From positions 744,001 to 808,000 of the forward strand of contig NC_013203.1 in the NCBI RefSeq assembly GCF_000024225.1: a DNA stretch of 64,000 nucleotides, given 5' to 3'. The position numbers and the translations under genes were made by a program. The notes beneath the pieces are model-generated. The model did not search any database. It saw only the letters and a list, made by a program, of their open reading frames with translations, and was not told the origin of the DNA. This document shows, piece by piece, positions 1,786 through 17,980 of the stretch (its first letter is position 1; each line of letters begins with the position of its first letter). This DNA comes from Lancefieldella parvula DSM 20469 (GTDB taxonomy: Bacteria > Actinomycetota > Coriobacteriia > Coriobacteriales > Atopobiaceae).

Positions 1786-2325
1786 ATGTTTGGACTTGAT
1801 CCATTGTATACACCAGAGCGCCAGGTAACTGGTACTGAGGTAGCTGTTTTTGATACCAACAAGGGAATCATTAAGGTTCAGCTTGATGGTAAGGGTGCAC
1901 CTATTCATGTAGCAAACTTCTGCGAGCTTGCAGAGTCTGGCTTCTACGACAATACCAAGTTTCACCGTCTTGTCCCTGGCTTTGTTGTTCAGGGTGGAGA
2001 TCCTAATACTCGTGAGATGAGTGTTGAGGATGTTGTGCTTGGTAATCCTGGTCCCGATGGAATTCCTGGTACTGGTGGTCCTGGTTATCGCATCAAAGAA
2101 GAGTTCAGTTCCAATCCTAACAACTCCCACGTTGATGGTGCTCTTGCTATGGCTCGCTCTCAGGATCCAAACTCTGCAGGTTCGCAGTTTTATTTCTGCC
2201 TTGGTCCACAGCATGGCTTGGATTCTGGGTACACCGTATTTGGCACAACTATCGAAGGAATGGATGTCATCTCCCAGTTAAAGATTGGTGATGTCATTAA
2301 TTCCATTAGAATTGAAAACGCTTAA
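1786..2325 (+). CDS. Cyclophilin-type peptidylprolyl isomerase
   Basis: This 179-residue protein is a cyclophilin, which catalyses cis-trans isomerisation of prolyl bonds and assists protein folding. Diagnostic stretches are FHRLVPGFVVQGGDP, GALAMARSQDPNSAGSQFY and the closing GLDSGYTVFG; the catalytic Arg of FHRLVPGF and the QF pair of the pocket are present. No signal peptide is visible, so it should act in the cytoplasm. The ATG follows a strong TTGGAGG. The TPR-protein gene begins 31 bases downstream, with no terminator between, so the two are probably co-transcribed. Confidence 0.93.
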   Translation: MFGLDPLYTPERQVTGTEVAVFDTNKGIIKVQLDGKGAPIHVANFCELAESGFYDNTKFHRLVPGFVVQGGDPNTREMSVEDVVLGNPGPDGIPGTGGPGYRIKEEFSSNPNNSHVDGALAMARSQDPNSAGSQFYFCLGPQHGLDSGYTVFGTTIEGMDVISQLKIGDVINSIRIENA

Positions 2326-2356
2326 AGCCAAGTCGCACAGACTCTTGGAGGATATT

Positions 2357-3760
2357 GTGAATCAACAGGCATTTGAGTTAGGTAAATCTGCATATGATCA
2401 GGGCGACTGGTTTGTAGCTATCAGCCAGCTTGATATGGCTAAAGAGCCAGGTGAGGTAAACGGTCAGATTGACCATCTTCTTGGCAATGCTTACATGAAG
2501 CTTGGACAGTTTGATTCTGCCGCTTCTGCGTATCAGTCCGCACTTGCCGATGCATCATACGGCAAGGTTGGCGCTCTTTCTACTAATCAGGGTCGTGCTC
2601 TTCTAGCTGCTGGTAGGGTACAGGAGGCAATTGCTTCTCTCACTAACGCTGTTCAGGATGTCTCTTATGCAACTCCTTACAAGGCACAGCTTGCCCTTGG
2701 CTCTGCTTACGAGAAAATTGGTGATGTTCGCAACGCTGGTATTGCTTACAGAAACGCTGCAGTAGACGAGAAGAACCCTAATCCTTCATCTGCTCTTTGT
2801 AGTCTTGGCGCATGCTTTATGGGTCTGAACAGACCTGTTGATGCAGTTGAGGCATATCGCACTGCTCTTGATTTTGCTAATCCTTTAGAGAACTCTAATA
2901 AGATTTACGCAGATCTTGGCCTTGCTTACGTTGCAGCTAATCGTATGTCTGAGGCAGTTGATGCTTTTACGCACGCTACTACAGATGGTACCTTTGCCTT
3001 GTCTGATCAGCAGCAGTCTGCTTTTGATGCTGCTCGTAAGGCTATTACCGCAATGAGTTCTGGCAAACCATCTGAGACTGATGCTTTCCTTCAGGCAGCT
3101 GGTTATGGCTCCTACGATCCACTTGATCCTACTGGTATGTCTGGTGAGCTCATTCCTTCCGCAGAAGACACTGGTTTCTTCCAAATTACTGAGCAGGAGA
3201 TTATTGAGCAGGACAAGAAGGACAAAAAGATTAGGCGTAAGCACCGTCACACTGGACTTAAGGTTTTCATTACCATTCTTATTTTACTTATCCTGGCAGT
3301 TGCTGGTGCTGGTTATGCTTATTATCGTGGCTATGGATGGCCAACCCAGCAGTCTGTTGTTCAAGATATTTTCAATGCTAAGGCACAGGGTACCGATATT
3401 GGTCGCTATGTCTCTAGTTCTGTTTCTAGCACTACGCTCCAGCAGATTTCTAACAGCCTGCCATCAAGTTCTACTGTTACCATCAACGGTGTTGACCAGA
3501 GTATGACTCATTCAACGGTAAACGCTTCTGTCAGTCTTTCTAATGGCGGAAACGTTGACTATACCATTGAACTTGTTCGTGATGGTATTGGTTGGAAGGT
3601 TGCAAGCGTAACCACTTCATATGTAAGCCAGAATAATCAGAACTCCGGTACAACTTCTGGTACCAACAGTTCTAATACAGGAACTACCTCTGGAACTAAT
3701 GGATCTAACTCTTCAAATTCCTCTAATAGTTCCTCCAACTCTTCAAAGTCTGGCAACTAA
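2357..3760 (+). CDS. TPR-repeat protein with C-terminal membrane anchor
   Basis: I chose the GTG at 2357 because GGAGG lies just upstream; the frame stays open further upstream into the cyclophilin gene. The 467-residue product has several tetratricopeptide repeats in its first ~250 residues (recurrent LGNAY, LGSAYEKIG and LGLAYVAANR helices), suggesting a protein-docking scaffold. A basic stretch and one transmembrane helix follow at about residues 318-340. The outer portion is a small domain of about 90 residues, then a tail built almost only of Ser, Asn, Thr and Gly. The tail resembles wall-spanning linkers. It directly precedes the mre cluster, so a link to envelope growth is possible but unproven. 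Confidence 0.75.
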   Translation: MNQQAFELGKSAYDQGDWFVAISQLDMAKEPGEVNGQIDHLLGNAYMKLGQFDSAASAYQSALADASYGKVGALSTNQGRALLAAGRVQEAIASLTNAVQDVSYATPYKAQLALGSAYEKIGDVRNAGIAYRNAAVDEKNPNPSSALCSLGACFMGLNRPVDAVEAYRTALDFANPLENSNKIYADLGLAYVAANRMSEAVDAFTHATTDGTFALSDQQQSAFDAARKAITAMSSGKPSETDAFLQAAGYGSYDPLDPTGMSGELIPSAEDTGFFQITEQEIIEQDKKDKKIRRKHRHTGLKVFITILILLILAVAGAGYAYYRGYGWPTQQSVVQDIFNAKAQGTDIGRYVSSSVSSTTLQQISNSLPSSSTVTINGVDQSMTHSTVNASVSLSNGGNVDYTIELVRDGIGWKVASVTTSYVSQNNQNSGTTSGTNSSNTGTTSGTNGSNSSNSSNSSSNSSKSGN

Positions 3761-14324: not shown

Positions 14325-14349
14325 AAGGGGCCCTTTGAGGTCCCTTTTT
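14325..14349 (+). terminator. Rho-independent terminator of rplU-rpmA
   Basis: Stem AAGGGGCC (14325-14332) with GGTCCCTT (14339-14346), loop CTTTGA, one G-U pair, then a T run. Confidence 0.8.
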
Positions 14350-14409
14350 GTTTCTCGCAATAGTTGCAGCTACCGCTTACCGTTTCAAATTTGTTTCTAA
14401 ATTTATTTC

Positions 14410-14440
14410 TTGACACAAACGAGCAAAGTGATGGTATTCT
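14410..14440 (+). promoter_or_regulatory. Promoter of the trp-leader/ECF operon
   Basis: A perfect TTGACA (14410-14415) and TATTCT (14435-14440) with TGG directly before it (extended -10). The 19-base spacer is slightly long. Transcription would begin near 14447, about 35 bases before the leader peptide. Confidence 0.7.
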
Positions 14441-14480
14441 GCTTATATTGCAATTCATGCTTTTGGGAGGAGGACATATC

Positions 14481-14543
14481 ATGCGCGCTACATGCACACA
14501 GCAGTGGTGGTGGAACAACTTGTCTTTCTCCGGTCAGCGATGA
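14481..14543 (+). CDS. Tryptophan leader peptide with three consecutive Trp codons
   Basis: A 20-codon reading frame begins with ATG at 14481 after a very strong GGGAGGAGGA and ends at TGA 14541-14543. Its product is MRATCTQQWWWNNLSFSGQR; the three Trp codons (14505-14513) stand in a row, as in trp-operon leader peptides. Trp is rare, so three in a 20-residue peptide next to a terminator is diagnostic of ribosome-mediated attenuation. The ribosome would pause here when charged tRNA-Trp is scarce. The genes below are an ECF transporter, not trp biosynthesis. Confidence 0.88.
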   Translation: MRATCTQQWWWNNLSFSGQR

Positions 14544-14603
14544 GTTGCTTCTGCATACGCATTTAGAGGCTCTCGGGTGACCGAGAGTTTTTTTGTGCGT
14601 ATG
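14528..14603 (+). promoter_or_regulatory. Tryptophan attenuator: terminator and competing antiterminator
   Basis: The terminator stem is CTCTCGG (14570-14576) with CCGAGAG (14581-14587), loop GTGA, extended by A-T/G-U pairs, then TTTTTTT. The end of the leader-peptide gene, CTCCGGTCA (14528-14536), can instead pair with TGACCGAGAG (14578-14587): nine pairs with one bulged A. That removes the 3' arm of the terminator. A ribosome paused on the Trp codons leaves this segment free, whereas one that reaches the stop codon covers it. CATACGCA (14554-14561) can also pair with TGCGTATG (14596-14603) in read-through RNA. Confidence 0.8.
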
Positions 14604-14686
14604 TTTCTTACTTAATCCGGATGGCGAGAAATTCGTTTAGTTGAAAGTGTTGTTTGTATTTTTAGGTTTGTTGTAAAGGAGTTTGT

Positions 14687-15280
14687 ATGTCTACAGAAAA
14701 TTTTAATGAGGTAAACGCTGCAGACACAGAGACAGGATCTACTGGTCAGGCACCACGTGTTGTTGCTGTTTCAAAATCTGCAGGCGTTTTGGATGTTGCT
14801 TCTTTGGTTCTTGTTGCTGTTCTTATTGCTGCAGGCTTTATCCTTAATCTGACCGTTGGCAAGGCAATCAGTGCCATTGGTATTGGTCCAGAGTTTATTA
14901 TTGCTTCGTTTTGTCTTGCTATTCTTTTGCTTAAGCCAAACGCTGTTCAAAGTTTTGTTATTGGTCTTATTGCAGCAACCGTCATTCAGCTGACCACTTC
15001 TGTACCAGGTGCAGATTTTGTTGCAGAGGGTGTTGCTTCACTTGTCATGTTTGCATTCACTAAATCCGCTTTTGCTGACAAGCCGATAATGCCTGCTATT
15101 GGCTCTTTTGTAACAACTCTAATTTCTGGTCTCATTTTTGCTGCTATTGCTATTCCAGCTAAGGGTGCAACTATTGAGCTTTTCTACGTAATGCTTCCAG
15201 TCATCGTGGGAACCGCATTCTTTAATGCTATTGTTGTTCAGGTCCTTGCGGCTCCTCTTAAGAAGGTATTGGGTCGATAA
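14687..15280 (+). CDS. ECF transporter S component, TrpP-like (tryptophan)
   Basis: The 197-residue protein has a polar head of about 35 residues and five or six membrane helices. The stretch GLIAATVIQLTTSVPGADF and the overall layout resemble TrpP of Bacillus, the tryptophan-binding S component family. The next two genes supply the fused ATPase and the T subunit, so this is a self-contained (group I) ECF transporter. The Trp-codon attenuator upstream independently points to tryptophan as substrate. The ATG follows AAAGGAG. Membership of the family is strong; the substrate is an inference. Confidence 0.82.
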   Translation: MSTENFNEVNAADTETGSTGQAPRVVAVSKSAGVLDVASLVLVAVLIAAGFILNLTVGKAISAIGIGPEFIIASFCLAILLLKPNAVQSFVIGLIAATVIQLTTSVPGADFVAEGVASLVMFAFTKSAFADKPIMPAIGSFVTTLISGLIFAAIAIPAKGATIELFYVMLPVIVGTAFFNAIVVQVLAAPLKKVLGR

Positions 15281-15315
15281 GTTCTTAGATACGCACAAAT
15301 TTCCTGGAGAACACT

Positions 15316-17241
15316 GTGTCTATTATTGAAGTTCAATCTGTGTCATATAGCTATCCCGATAGTTCAGCGCATGCTCTTAATGAGCTGTCTTTAAGCGTTC
15401 AAGAGGGTGACTTTGTAGGTATTGTTGGTCCTTCCGGTGCAGGTAAGTCTACACTTGCTCTTGCGCTTTCTGGTGCCATCCCTCACCATTTCAGGGGCAA
15501 TTTTTTTGGAAAGATTCTTGTTTCTGGAATGGATACCTGCACGGTTGCGTTAACTGATATCTCTAAGATTGTGGGATCAATCACTCAAGATATCAATGCA
15601 CAGATGGTCGCTTCAATTGTTGAGGATGAGCTTCTCTTTGGTCTTGAGAACTTTGCCGTTCCTCATGCAGAGATTCCAGAGAGAATTACGTATGCCCTAG
15701 AAACTGTTGGTATTGCCAACCTTCGCTTTAGAGAGATTGCTTCTCTTTCTGGCGGACAGAAGCAAAAAGTTGCTATTGCAGCTCTTCTAGCATTACAACC
15801 ACAGGTTATGGTGCTTGATGAGCCAACAGCAGCCTTAGATCCAACGTCGTCTGAGTTAATCTTCCAGACGCTTTCAGAGCTCAATAAAACTAAAGACATT
15901 ACCGTTGTGGTGATTGAACAGAAAGTTGGTCTTCTCGCCAAGTATTGTTCAAAGATTGCCATTATGGACAAGGGTACTATTTGTGCATTTGGTAGTGGTG
16001 AGGAAGTATTCTCACAGGTAGATTTGTTACAAGAGGTTGGTGTTGATGTCCCTCGTTGTGTACGCGTTTCAAAGGGCGTCCATGAGCTTTCACAGCAGCC
16101 TGAGTATGCTCACTTGATTAGTGAGGCTGACAGAGCCGTCTGCGATGAGACTGCGTTATCGGTTCAGTCAGCTGCTAAACAGCTTGCACATTGTGTGGGC
16201 GCTCTTCAGCATCGTAGTATTTCTCTTACAGAGAGCTTTGAAACATCCGCTACTGATGCTGTTGAGCTGGCAGGAAAAACATATCTTCCAAAAATTGATG
16301 GTCCTGTAGTTGCTGAATCTAGTGGGCCATTTGAAAGGATTGGTGTTCTTCAAGACGCGGAGCCGCCAAGTACTCAGTCCGTTCTGGATGTTATTGATGC
16401 CACCTTTAAATACCAGGAAAGTACTGATGGTGTTGAGCGTGTCTCTCTTAGTTTGTATCCTGGCGAGCTTGTTGCCCTTGTAGGTCAAAATGGTGCTGGT
16501 AAGACAACTCTAACTAAGCTGGTAAATGGTCTCTTACGTCCACGATCTGGAGACATTCAAATTAAAGGCGCTTCATGCAAGGGTTGGAAAACATCGCAGA
16601 TTGCTCAGCATGTTTCAACGCTGTTCCAAAATCCTGATTACCAGATTTGTAAAGAGAGTGTTCTTGAGGAGGTTGCTTTTGGCCCTGAGCTCAAAGGCGC
16701 GTCTACAGAAGAAGCTCGCAAGAAAGCACTTGAAGTAATTAATCATATGGGATTGGATGCAGATGCGTCACCGTTCATGCTTTCTCGTGGACAGCGTCAG
16801 ATGGTCGCCCTGGCTTCCGTGGTTGCTTGTGAGCCAGATATTCTTGTGCTTGATGAACCAACGTCAGGTCTGGATTACAAAGAGTGCATGCAGGTCATGA
16901 ACATGGTTCAGTCTCTGTGCGAGAAGGGCTGTGCAGTTCTTATGGTTTGCCATGATATGGAGGTTGTGCTGGATTTTGCCAGCAGAATTGTCGTCATGGC
17001 GCATGGCAGCGTATTAGATGATGGGGAAGTCACACAGATCTTCTCGACAGATGAGGTTCTAAAAGAAGCATATGTTGAGGCTCCTCAGATAATCCAACTG
17101 TCAAAGCTAGTAGGTACGCATGTGGACCCGTCATTTGCTGGGCTAAGCAGTGCTTCAGAGGTGCTTGATGCATTGCGGTATCAGTTTGAAACTTCTCGAA
17201 TTGCAGCAACGCTGAATGGTAAGGAGGTTTCTCGTGGGTAG
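15316..17241 (+). CDS. ECF transporter energising subunit, two fused ATPase domains
   Basis: The 641-residue protein contains two complete ABC ATPases, equivalent to EcfA and EcfA' in one chain. Domain 1: Walker A GPSGAGKST (38-46), signature LSGGQKQK, Walker B VMVLDEPTAA. Domain 2: Walker A GQNGAGKTT (about 394), signature LSRGQRQM (an R replaces the second G-position residue), Walker B ILVLDEPTSG. About 130 poorly conserved residues join them. It drives substrate release by the S subunit through the T subunit. Translation starts at GTG; the 3' end overlaps the T-subunit gene. Confidence 0.92.
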   Translation: MSIIEVQSVSYSYPDSSAHALNELSLSVQEGDFVGIVGPSGAGKSTLALALSGAIPHHFRGNFFGKILVSGMDTCTVALTDISKIVGSITQDINAQMVASIVEDELLFGLENFAVPHAEIPERITYALETVGIANLRFREIASLSGGQKQKVAIAALLALQPQVMVLDEPTAALDPTSSELIFQTLSELNKTKDITVVVIEQKVGLLAKYCSKIAIMDKGTICAFGSGEEVFSQVDLLQEVGVDVPRCVRVSKGVHELSQQPEYAHLISEADRAVCDETALSVQSAAKQLAHCVGALQHRSISLTESFETSATDAVELAGKTYLPKIDGPVVAESSGPFERIGVLQDAEPPSTQSVLDVIDATFKYQESTDGVERVSLSLYPGELVALVGQNGAGKTTLTKLVNGLLRPRSGDIQIKGASCKGWKTSQIAQHVSTLFQNPDYQICKESVLEEVAFGPELKGASTEEARKKALEVINHMGLDADASPFMLSRGQRQMVALASVVACEPDILVLDEPTSGLDYKECMQVMNMVQSLCEKGCAVLMVCHDMEVVLDFASRIVVMAHGSVLDDGEVTQIFSTDEVLKEAYVEAPQIIQLSKLVGTHVDPSFAGLSSASEVLDALRYQFETSRIAATLNGKEVSRG

Positions 17242-17980
17242 TGTTATTGATTACACCGAAGGAACAAGTTTCCTTCATAAGGCAAATCCCGTAGCCAAAC
17301 TTATATTTGCTCTTGAACTCTTTATTGCTGCCTTTGCTGCACACGGAATATTTGAGGTACTTGCAGTTTTGGTACTCACAATTCTTGTGGGAGTTGTCTC
17401 ACAGAATGCTCAGAAGACTTTTAAGCTGGTATTTGGCTTTTCGGTCTTAGGCCTTATTTTGTGTATTGTTCAGACGCTTGTTGCTCCTGCTGGTCAACAA
17501 CTCTTTTTATTCATCACGGTAGGTGGTTTAGAGCGCGGTTTTAACGTTGCTCTAAAAACAATAGCGCTGGCTTTGCCGCTGCTTTCTATGCTTTCACTTA
17601 TGCGTGTAGAAGACCTTATGAACGCACTTGTAGAAGTTGTACATGTTCCATATCCGTATGCGTTTACCATTGCAACTGTTTTGCGCTTTGTGCCCGTATT
17701 TGCTTCCGAGATGAACCATATCATGGAAGCTCAGATGGCTCGTGGTGTTGAGTTTGATACCAAAAATCCGCTTAAGAAGCTCCAGCTCACCATGCCTTTA
17801 ATTGTTCCTTTGTTGGTGAGTTCCGTTAAAAAAGCAGACGCTTCTGCATTAGCGGCTGAGCAGCGGGGTTTCTATTTAAGGAATGCTTCATCTGCATTTA
17901 AACGTTACTCTTTAGCTCCAGCTGACTTTGCATTGATGGCTTTTGGTGTAGCGATAATTGTTGTTATCCTCGTGTTCTAG
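17234..17980 (+). CDS. ECF transporter T component
   Basis: I place the start at the GTG at 17234, which overlaps the end of the ATPase gene and has AAGGAGG ten bases before; an upstream in-frame ATG would sit on that site. The 248-residue membrane protein has about five helices and two coupling motifs of the EcfT type, AQMARGVEF and AAEQRGFY, whose Arg-Gly pairs contact the ATPases. It completes the S-AA'-T set. No terminator is visible between it and obg 72 bases later. Confidence 0.92.
   Translation: MGSVIDYTEGTSFLHKANPVAKLIFALELFIAAFAAHGIFEVLAVLVLTILVGVVSQNAQKTFKLVFGFSVLGLILCIVQTLVAPAGQQLFLFITVGGLERGFNVALKTIALALPLLSMLSLMRVEDLMNALVEVVHVPYPYAFTIATVLRFVPVFASEMNHIMEAQMARGVEFDTKNPLKKLQLTMPLIVPLLVSSVKKADASALAAEQRGFYLRNASSAFKRYSLAPADFALMAFGVAIIVVILVF

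Follow-up and report, generated by a model that had tools for sequence, protein, structure and literature searches.

We describe a leader region of Lancefieldella parvula DSM 20469 that very probably is a ribosome-mediated transcription attenuator, which reads charged tRNA-Trp and controls a dedicated energy-coupling factor (ECF) transporter, most likely a tryptophan importer. The region lies in a stretch of 64,000 nucleotides (nt) of contig NC_013203.1 (positions 744,001 to 808,000 of the forward strand), hereafter the window, and all coordinates are those of the window. Attenuators that respond to tryptophan (Trp) are established in enterobacteria. In Escherichia coli trpL, a leader peptide with tandem Trp codons precedes an intrinsic terminator, and the position of the ribosome decides the outcome. 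The initial annotation had proposed the same kind of control here, and a leader peptide, three UGG codons, a terminator and a pairing that competes with it were all found at the positions it gave, upstream of an ECF operon. By computation, the leader is conserved, its helices covary, nascent RNA toggles between two folds with ribosome position, leaders of this type precede a coherent set of genes, and the genome has no detectable trpB or TrpE-like gene. The elements of the leader are as follows.

14468-14473, forward strand: Shine-Dalgarno sequence AGGAGG of the leader peptide (from the sequence).
14481-14543, forward strand: leader peptide MRATCTQQWWWNNLSFSGQR, 20 codons, with UGGUGGUGG at 14505-14513 and UGA at 14541-14543 (sequence and relatives).
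14507-14524, forward strand: segment 1, containing Trp codons, predicted partner 14539-14558 (fold; the core covaries in relatives).
14528-14536, forward strand: putative 5' strand of the antiterminator, in the last leader codons, partner 14578-14587 (fold, covariation and nascent-RNA folding).
14539-14558, forward strand: segment 2; within it, 14541-14552 may also pair with 14565-14575 as the inner antiterminator part (fold).
14565-14594, forward strand: intrinsic terminator, stem 14565-14576/14581-14592, T run 14588-14594 (sequence, fold and covariation).

The core of the terminator consists of 7 bp (CTCTCGG/CCGAGAG) followed by seven T residues, and extra A-U and G-U pairs lengthen its stem to 12 bp. 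The competing pairing of 14528-14536 with 14578-14587 comprises 9 bp with one bulged A (-11.8 kcal/mol), and the window fold also contains the inner antiterminator part, 14541-14552 with 14565-14575. The fold of the 201-nt leader was 6.7 standard deviations better than those of dinucleotide shuffles, none of 200 being as good.

To assess conservation, we used the S component, the product of the first gene downstream, as the anchor. Of 140 family genomes, 69 had a match to this protein, and the upstream region was inspected in all 69. To count as a leader, TGGTGGTGG had to lie at most 320 nt upstream of the first S gene and within an open reading frame (ORF) that showed a Shine-Dalgarno-like stretch, an ATG in frame and a stop codon. 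Such a WWW leader was present before the S gene in 63 of the 69 genomes. Because TGGTGGTGG alone is common (21 copies in the genome; 1 in the window versus 0.28 expected), the evidence lies in its recurrence before the same gene and not in the motif, and this recurrence in a short ORF is beyond chance. The stop codon followed the first Trp codon by 36 nt in 60 of the 63 leaders, and the peptides mostly finished with G-[RQ]-x. A terminator was found after the WWW leader by script in 65 of 66 cases and by eye in the 66th (L049), in a set that included two duplicate records and one leader from another family. T-boxes that read Trp-tRNA precede Trp genes in Firmicutes, and a T-box or another Rfam-listed riboswitch might in principle control the operon, the Trp codons being incidental. 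This explanation is scarcely credible here: no curated RNA family, T-box or other riboswitch, matched positions 14380-14720 at an E value of 1 or better, and the WWW run is conserved in frame.

We next examined whether the predicted helices are conserved as structures. Two leaders from the same genomes as others (L032 and L033, alongside L003 and L005) were dropped, and the 64 leaders were reduced to 42 below 95% identity. L070, which has a different leader and terminator and comes from a trpB genome, was excluded from the alignment and from the tests on 41 sequences; L034, from another family, was included in those tests and excluded from the 63/69 count. A covariance-model alignment, fitted to the structure under test, comprised 66 matches from 65 hand-chosen loci, one of them a symporter leader. 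For the 1:2 helix and the terminator, 91.5% of cells in this alignment were paired, and changes on both sides occurred in 18 of 18 pairs. Cells with both-side changes numbered 127, as compared to 30.7 in shuffles, and none of 500 shuffles reached any of five measures. Partner-swap tests on the 41 leaders, which are independent of the covariance alignment, gave z -5.6 for the 1:2 helix and z -10.8 for the terminator; RNAalifold on a reduced leader alignment gave the terminator only. In the window, the 1:2 helix, which passes through the Trp codons, joins 14507-14524 to 14539-14558; covariation of its core is seen in the 66 leaders. The mechanism had been proposed to be simpler than the classical four-segment one. 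This proposal fails, since a helix between the Trp codons and the post-stop segment is the 1:2 helix of a four-segment attenuator. Coevolution was further seen between the post-stop segment and the stretch that directly precedes the terminator (z -4.8 in the 41-leader swap test), as expected of an apical antiterminator helix. Thus, a leader ORF with a run of Trp codons, a 1:2 helix and an intrinsic terminator before the gene are all present, as in known attenuators.

The alternative pairing joins CGGUC near the end of the leader to GACCG, which belongs to the terminator (loop side and 3' arm). Among the ECF leaders, it was 90% paired and nearly invariant. Its covariation became visible over 56 leaders from three gene classes (the 41 above, 11 before TrpB-like genes and 4 before sodium symporters), with z -6.8 and none of 5000 swaps equally good. 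Both strands often differ in the non-ECF leaders (CGGGUCU with AGAUCCG, for example), and the antiterminator strands of the TrpB-like leaders covary with the terminator loop. Hence the peptide and the alternative pairing are both conserved in relatives; the initial annotation had named a lack of such conservation as fatal to its proposal. Counted from the first Trp codon, the CGGUC strand begins at a distance of 26 nt in 29 of the 41 sequences in the ECF set; the scan halted at an earlier copy of a GGTC repeat in 10 others, and 2 have no GGTC. In the non-ECF leaders, the stop codon lies 18-36 nt after the first Trp codon, and the strand is translated in some and not in others. The strand had been placed inside the peptide gene, which is correct for the ECF leaders; in some NSS-type symporter and TrpB-like leaders it follows the stop codon. 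The distance from the Trp codons to the strand is therefore roughly fixed, and the place of the stop codon is not. This suggests that the spacing suits the footprint of the ribosome and that the RNA, not the end of the peptide, has been selected.

The effect of ribosome position was then computed for nascent RNA, with the leader masked through 12 nt from the first A-site base and with 5 nt of the terminator 3' arm made. With the first Trp codon in the A site, the antiterminator exceeded 0.5 in 40 of 41 leaders. With the stop codon in the A site, it did so in none of the 41, and the terminator exceeded 0.5 in 40. When the peptide end was shuffled, the proportion with the antiterminator above 0.5 at the first Trp codon fell to 22% of 820. 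The E. coli trpL control, treated with the same masking and truncation and scored for its 5'-arm pairing, showed a similar toggle, and 15 non-ECF leaders toggled too. In silico, then, the antiterminator is freed at the Trp codons and covered at the stop. Full-length equilibrium folding with a masked ribosome had also been tried as a test, in which 4 of 42 leaders flipped; nascent lengths were adopted because the equilibrium test does not detect the proven E. coli trpL attenuator either.

These results are consistent with the following mechanism. When Trp-tRNA is ample, the ribosome would reach UGA (14541-14543) and cover part of segment 2 together with 14528-14536, whereupon the terminator (14565-14594) would form and transcription would halt. 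When Trp-tRNA is short, the ribosome would pause at the UGG codons (14505-14513) and leave 14528-14536 free to pair with 14578-14587, in the loop and 3' arm of the terminator, as this part exits the polymerase. Meanwhile, 14541-14552 would pair with 14565-14575, so that the terminator would be pre-empted and ecfS-ecfAA'-ecfT transcribed. The 1:2 helix (14507-14524 with 14539-14558) may promote termination in an untranslated leader. We infer actual read-through and the sensing of tRNA from the conserved WWW leader, the covarying helices and the nascent-RNA toggle, which together favor attenuation by Trp codons as first proposed.

Downstream of the leader, an S component, a double ATPase and a T subunit were found as annotated, and by adjacency the S gene, the two ATPase units and the T gene form one operon.

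14687-15280, forward strand: ECF S component, weakly TrpP-like, a probable tryptophan binder (profile, alignment and structure model).
15316-17241, forward strand: fused pair of ECF ATPases, EcfA-EcfA' (TIGR04520 and TIGR04521 above cut-off).
17216-17980, forward strand: ECF T component of the CbiQ family (PF02361, 88.3 bits).

The structure model of the S component has six helices (pLDDT 89.7), and its three best Foldseek matches are S components (probability 0.95-0.98, E 0.3-0.5); by sequence, no close solved relative was found (best E 0.5). An AxxxA motif of S components has been described (PMC11109136), and in helix 1 of this family A44 and A48 are invariant in 56 of 56 proteins. The six-helix fold and this motif are those of an S component. 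The Pfam profile for TrpP (PF17099), which detected TrpP of Bacillus subtilis as a control, matched 42 of 56 members of the S family at E 0.1 or better. Its cut-off was passed in 3 of 10 relatives scanned singly, one of which, the distant copy L072, lacks a WWW leader.

To determine which other genes carry such leaders, we searched with a covariance model, R1; at E 0.001 it had matches in 153 of 396 genomes sampled from the class. Among the matches listed for these genomes, all those at E 1e-9 or better were in the same order, and in 396 genomes of the phylum only weak matches occurred outside the order (best E 1.7e-5). The gene counts that follow describe loci hand-picked from the R1 list and from trpB hits (L161 among the latter), with 40 bits or more taken as a strong match; L038 (49.5 bits), one of the 69 family loci, is excluded from them. 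Downstream DNA was available for 27 of 28 selected strong matches: 23 stood before an S gene, with EcfA and T next, and 4 before a sodium symporter. One of those before an S gene (L132, 42.3 bits) has no TGGTGG. Among 24 weak matches (below 40 bits) checked singly, 11 preceded TrpB-like genes and had WW(W), and 2 preceded S genes without WWW; the other 11 had none of these genes and were read as lone terminators, tRNA or the end of a longer gene. The leaders with WW(W) and a terminator before TrpB-like genes are L120, L122, L130, L140-L143, L146, L148, L149 and L161. WWW leaders before sodium-dependent NSS-type symporters are L136, L137, L138 and L139, which suggests that tryptophan may be the substrate of these four symporters. 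One symporter passed NF037979 and one TrpB-like protein passed NF009057 and TIGR01415, and the others were assigned by similarity to these. In L136, the symporter leader lies directly upstream of an ECF operon that has its own leader, in tandem.

The genome of the window contained no TrpB homologue at E 0.001, in a search that detects the TrpB-like kind in relatives, and no chorismate-binding (TrpE-like) match. The organism thus seems, from its gene content, unable to make tryptophan. Since the same type of leader also precedes TrpB-like genes and symporters, and since the genome lacks trpB and a TrpE-like gene, tryptophan is likely the substrate of the S component, and it is the best-supported one, in line with the original assignment. 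True trpB was rarer in genomes with the S gene (12 of 69 versus 32 of 71; p 0.0005, uncorrected for relatedness or completeness), and 9 of the 12 genomes with both still have the WWW leader. A short WW ORF with a terminator was not found in five true-trpB stretches, searched with strict filters over part of each operon.

Several observations weigh against the interpretation of this region as a tryptophan-responsive attenuator of a tryptophan importer. The WWW leader is missing in 6 of the 69 S-bearing genomes. One of these (G037) has WW instead, and the remaining five (G038, G039, G008, G067 and G073) have neither before S. The S proteins of G067 and G073 are only 37% identical. In G038 and G039 (L155 and L156), no WWW ORF was seen upstream of S, and a weakly matching, attenuator-like terminator is retained there (25.7 bits). 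Within the ECF leaders, covariation of the antiterminator was no better than in shuffles, a comparison that is uninformative for so invariant a strand, and swap tests were weak (z -2.5, and z -2.1 in a second test). For the inner helix, which involves the 5' arm, no coevolution was seen in the 41-leader swap test (z -0.3), and one of its five positions was unpaired in 28 of 66 leaders. The toggle was weak in the leaders with the earliest stop, 18 nt past the first Trp codon (L161, L137 and the second leader of L136). When the leader was left untranslated at the same nascent length, the 1:2 helix formed in 3 of 41 leaders and the antiterminator pairing in 32 of 41, which does not agree with termination as the simple default, although the terminator won in all 41 at full length.

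At full-length equilibrium, moreover, the terminator won in 37 of 41 leaders even with the ribosome stalled at the first Trp codon (38 of 42 including L070), so antitermination must be kinetic in those relatives. The terminator likewise wins at full-length equilibrium in E. coli trpL, and the leader of the window belongs to the four in which the antiterminator is preferred under the stall even at full length. The 37 of 41 speak for a reading without antitermination, in which translation coupling or the peptide itself would act and the terminator would serve as a constant brake; a Trp leader peptide has been reported to act in trans (PMC7298713). However, covariation over the three gene classes links the antiterminator strand to the loop and 3' arm of the terminator, and it is the distance of this strand from the Trp codons, not the position of the stop codon, that is roughly conserved. 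We therefore consider control without antitermination very improbable.

The remaining counter-evidence concerns the substrate. The initial annotation had called the S component TrpP-like: a match to TrpP exists but is weak, with the window protein scoring 19.8 bits against a Pfam cut-off of 27.2 bits; in a scan of 10 relatives, no TrpP match at E 0.01 was obtained for 5, including two of the same genus. It is possible, though unlikely, that attenuation operates as proposed and that the S component carries another compound, such as indole or another aromatic that feeds a TrpB-like salvage enzyme. The leaders before TrpB-like enzymes would fit such a role, as would the reverse strand of L146, where one Trp leader is followed by a TrpB-like gene (472-1905) and then by a fusion of an S component with an ECF ATPase (1967-3463). 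On the other hand, indole would be of little use to the organism of the window, since its genome has no TrpB homologue at E 0.001, and the relatives that pass the TrpP cut-off, with the 42 of 56 that match at E 0.1 or better, favor tryptophan.

With tryptophan import as the preferred reading, the attenuator can be compared with known systems. It resembles E. coli trpL in its tandem-Trp leader peptide, intrinsic terminator, control by ribosome position and folding toggle. In trpL, however, the antiterminator pairs with the 5' arm of the terminator and biosynthesis is controlled, whereas in the window the loop and 3' arm are captured and an importer is controlled; in addition, the antiterminator strand of the window lies mostly within the last leader codons. 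The trp attenuators of Corynebacterium and Streptomyces, members of the same phylum, share UGG runs, GC-rich terminators and antiterminators; they differ in acting on trp operons and trpS and in their conserved triples gGCC-rGCy-GGCC (PMC1262725). The genome list of that study contains no Coriobacteriia, and no ECF, NSS or TrpB-like targets were encountered in the part consulted. TrpP of B. subtilis, whose family (PF17099) includes some S relatives by its cut-off, is likewise under feedback on tryptophan import. Its control is described as translational and exerted by the TRAP protein, which senses tryptophan and not charged tRNA, with no leader peptide in the part of the source consulted (PMC13170310). 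Ribosome-mediated transcriptional attenuation of an ATP-binding cassette (ABC) transporter has been described for BmrC/BmrD of B. subtilis, which is a multidrug, antibiotic-responsive system and not an amino-acid importer (PMC4191407). Among the matches listed in the open-access literature (titles and the openings of abstracts, with subscription journals mostly outside), no Trp attenuator on an ECF transporter was found. By function, then, this is a classical attenuator, distinguished by an antiterminator whose partner is the loop and 3' arm of the terminator and by targets that, as far as examined, all serve tryptophan acquisition.

A wider interpretation, which we hold to be probable though with less assurance than the attenuator itself, is that the Coriobacteriales, as we take to be the name of the order whose genomes share this element, have a common tryptophan regulon built on one attenuator design. 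In this design, the antiterminator strand would follow the Trp codons at an almost constant distance, in many cases still within the leader gene, and would capture the emerging terminator loop and 3' arm. The regulon would control acquisition (ECF and NSS importers and TrpB-like salvage) and not synthesis, so that tryptophan would be the substrate of this family of ECF S components and of the sodium symporters.

Upstream of the leader, two further features were noted.

14325-14346, forward strand: terminator-like hairpin 3' of the genes that we take, from their protein sequences, to be rplU-rpmA, separating these from the leader (terminator scan and ORFs).
14410-14440, forward strand: promoter-like site, TTGACA, 19 nt, TATTCT, with a TG extension (consensus only).

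The promoter had been described as strong. A perfect -35-like TTGACA (14410-14415) and an extended -10, TGG-TATTCT (14432-14440), are present, but the 19-nt spacer leaves the label of strong unestablished; this spacer is also outside the 16-18 range of the promoter scanner, which for that reason did not list the site. The site also occurs in the closest relative, L003, and is not evident in the other relatives displayed. Around the terminator, an outer stem of 14553-14562 with 14595-14604 (8 Watson-Crick and 2 G-U pairs) encloses the hairpin and its T run, and flanking stems of this kind are seen in several relatives (swap test z -2.7, 23/5000). In the locus L070 (genome G017), a WWW leader before S is followed by an unrelated terminator and has an earlier stop, and the genome carries trpB; this attenuator is possibly independent or diverged. 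G038 and G039 carry true trpB, as if the sensor had been lost where tryptophan can be made, which is no rule, since nine other trpB genomes retain the WWW leader. Two tandem S components follow one leader in L014, L026, L028, L061, L112 and others, and they possibly differ in substrate.

These findings offer a testable substrate for a family of ECF S components in host-associated Actinobacteria, and suggest how an organism without detectable tryptophan synthesis could adjust import to need. They also point to classical attenuation that serves uptake rather than biosynthesis, and provide an antiterminator layout for comparison with trpL. The covariance model R1 recovers leaders of this type from related genomes, and the regulation that they imply can guide the annotation of unnamed transporters and of TrpB-like genes.

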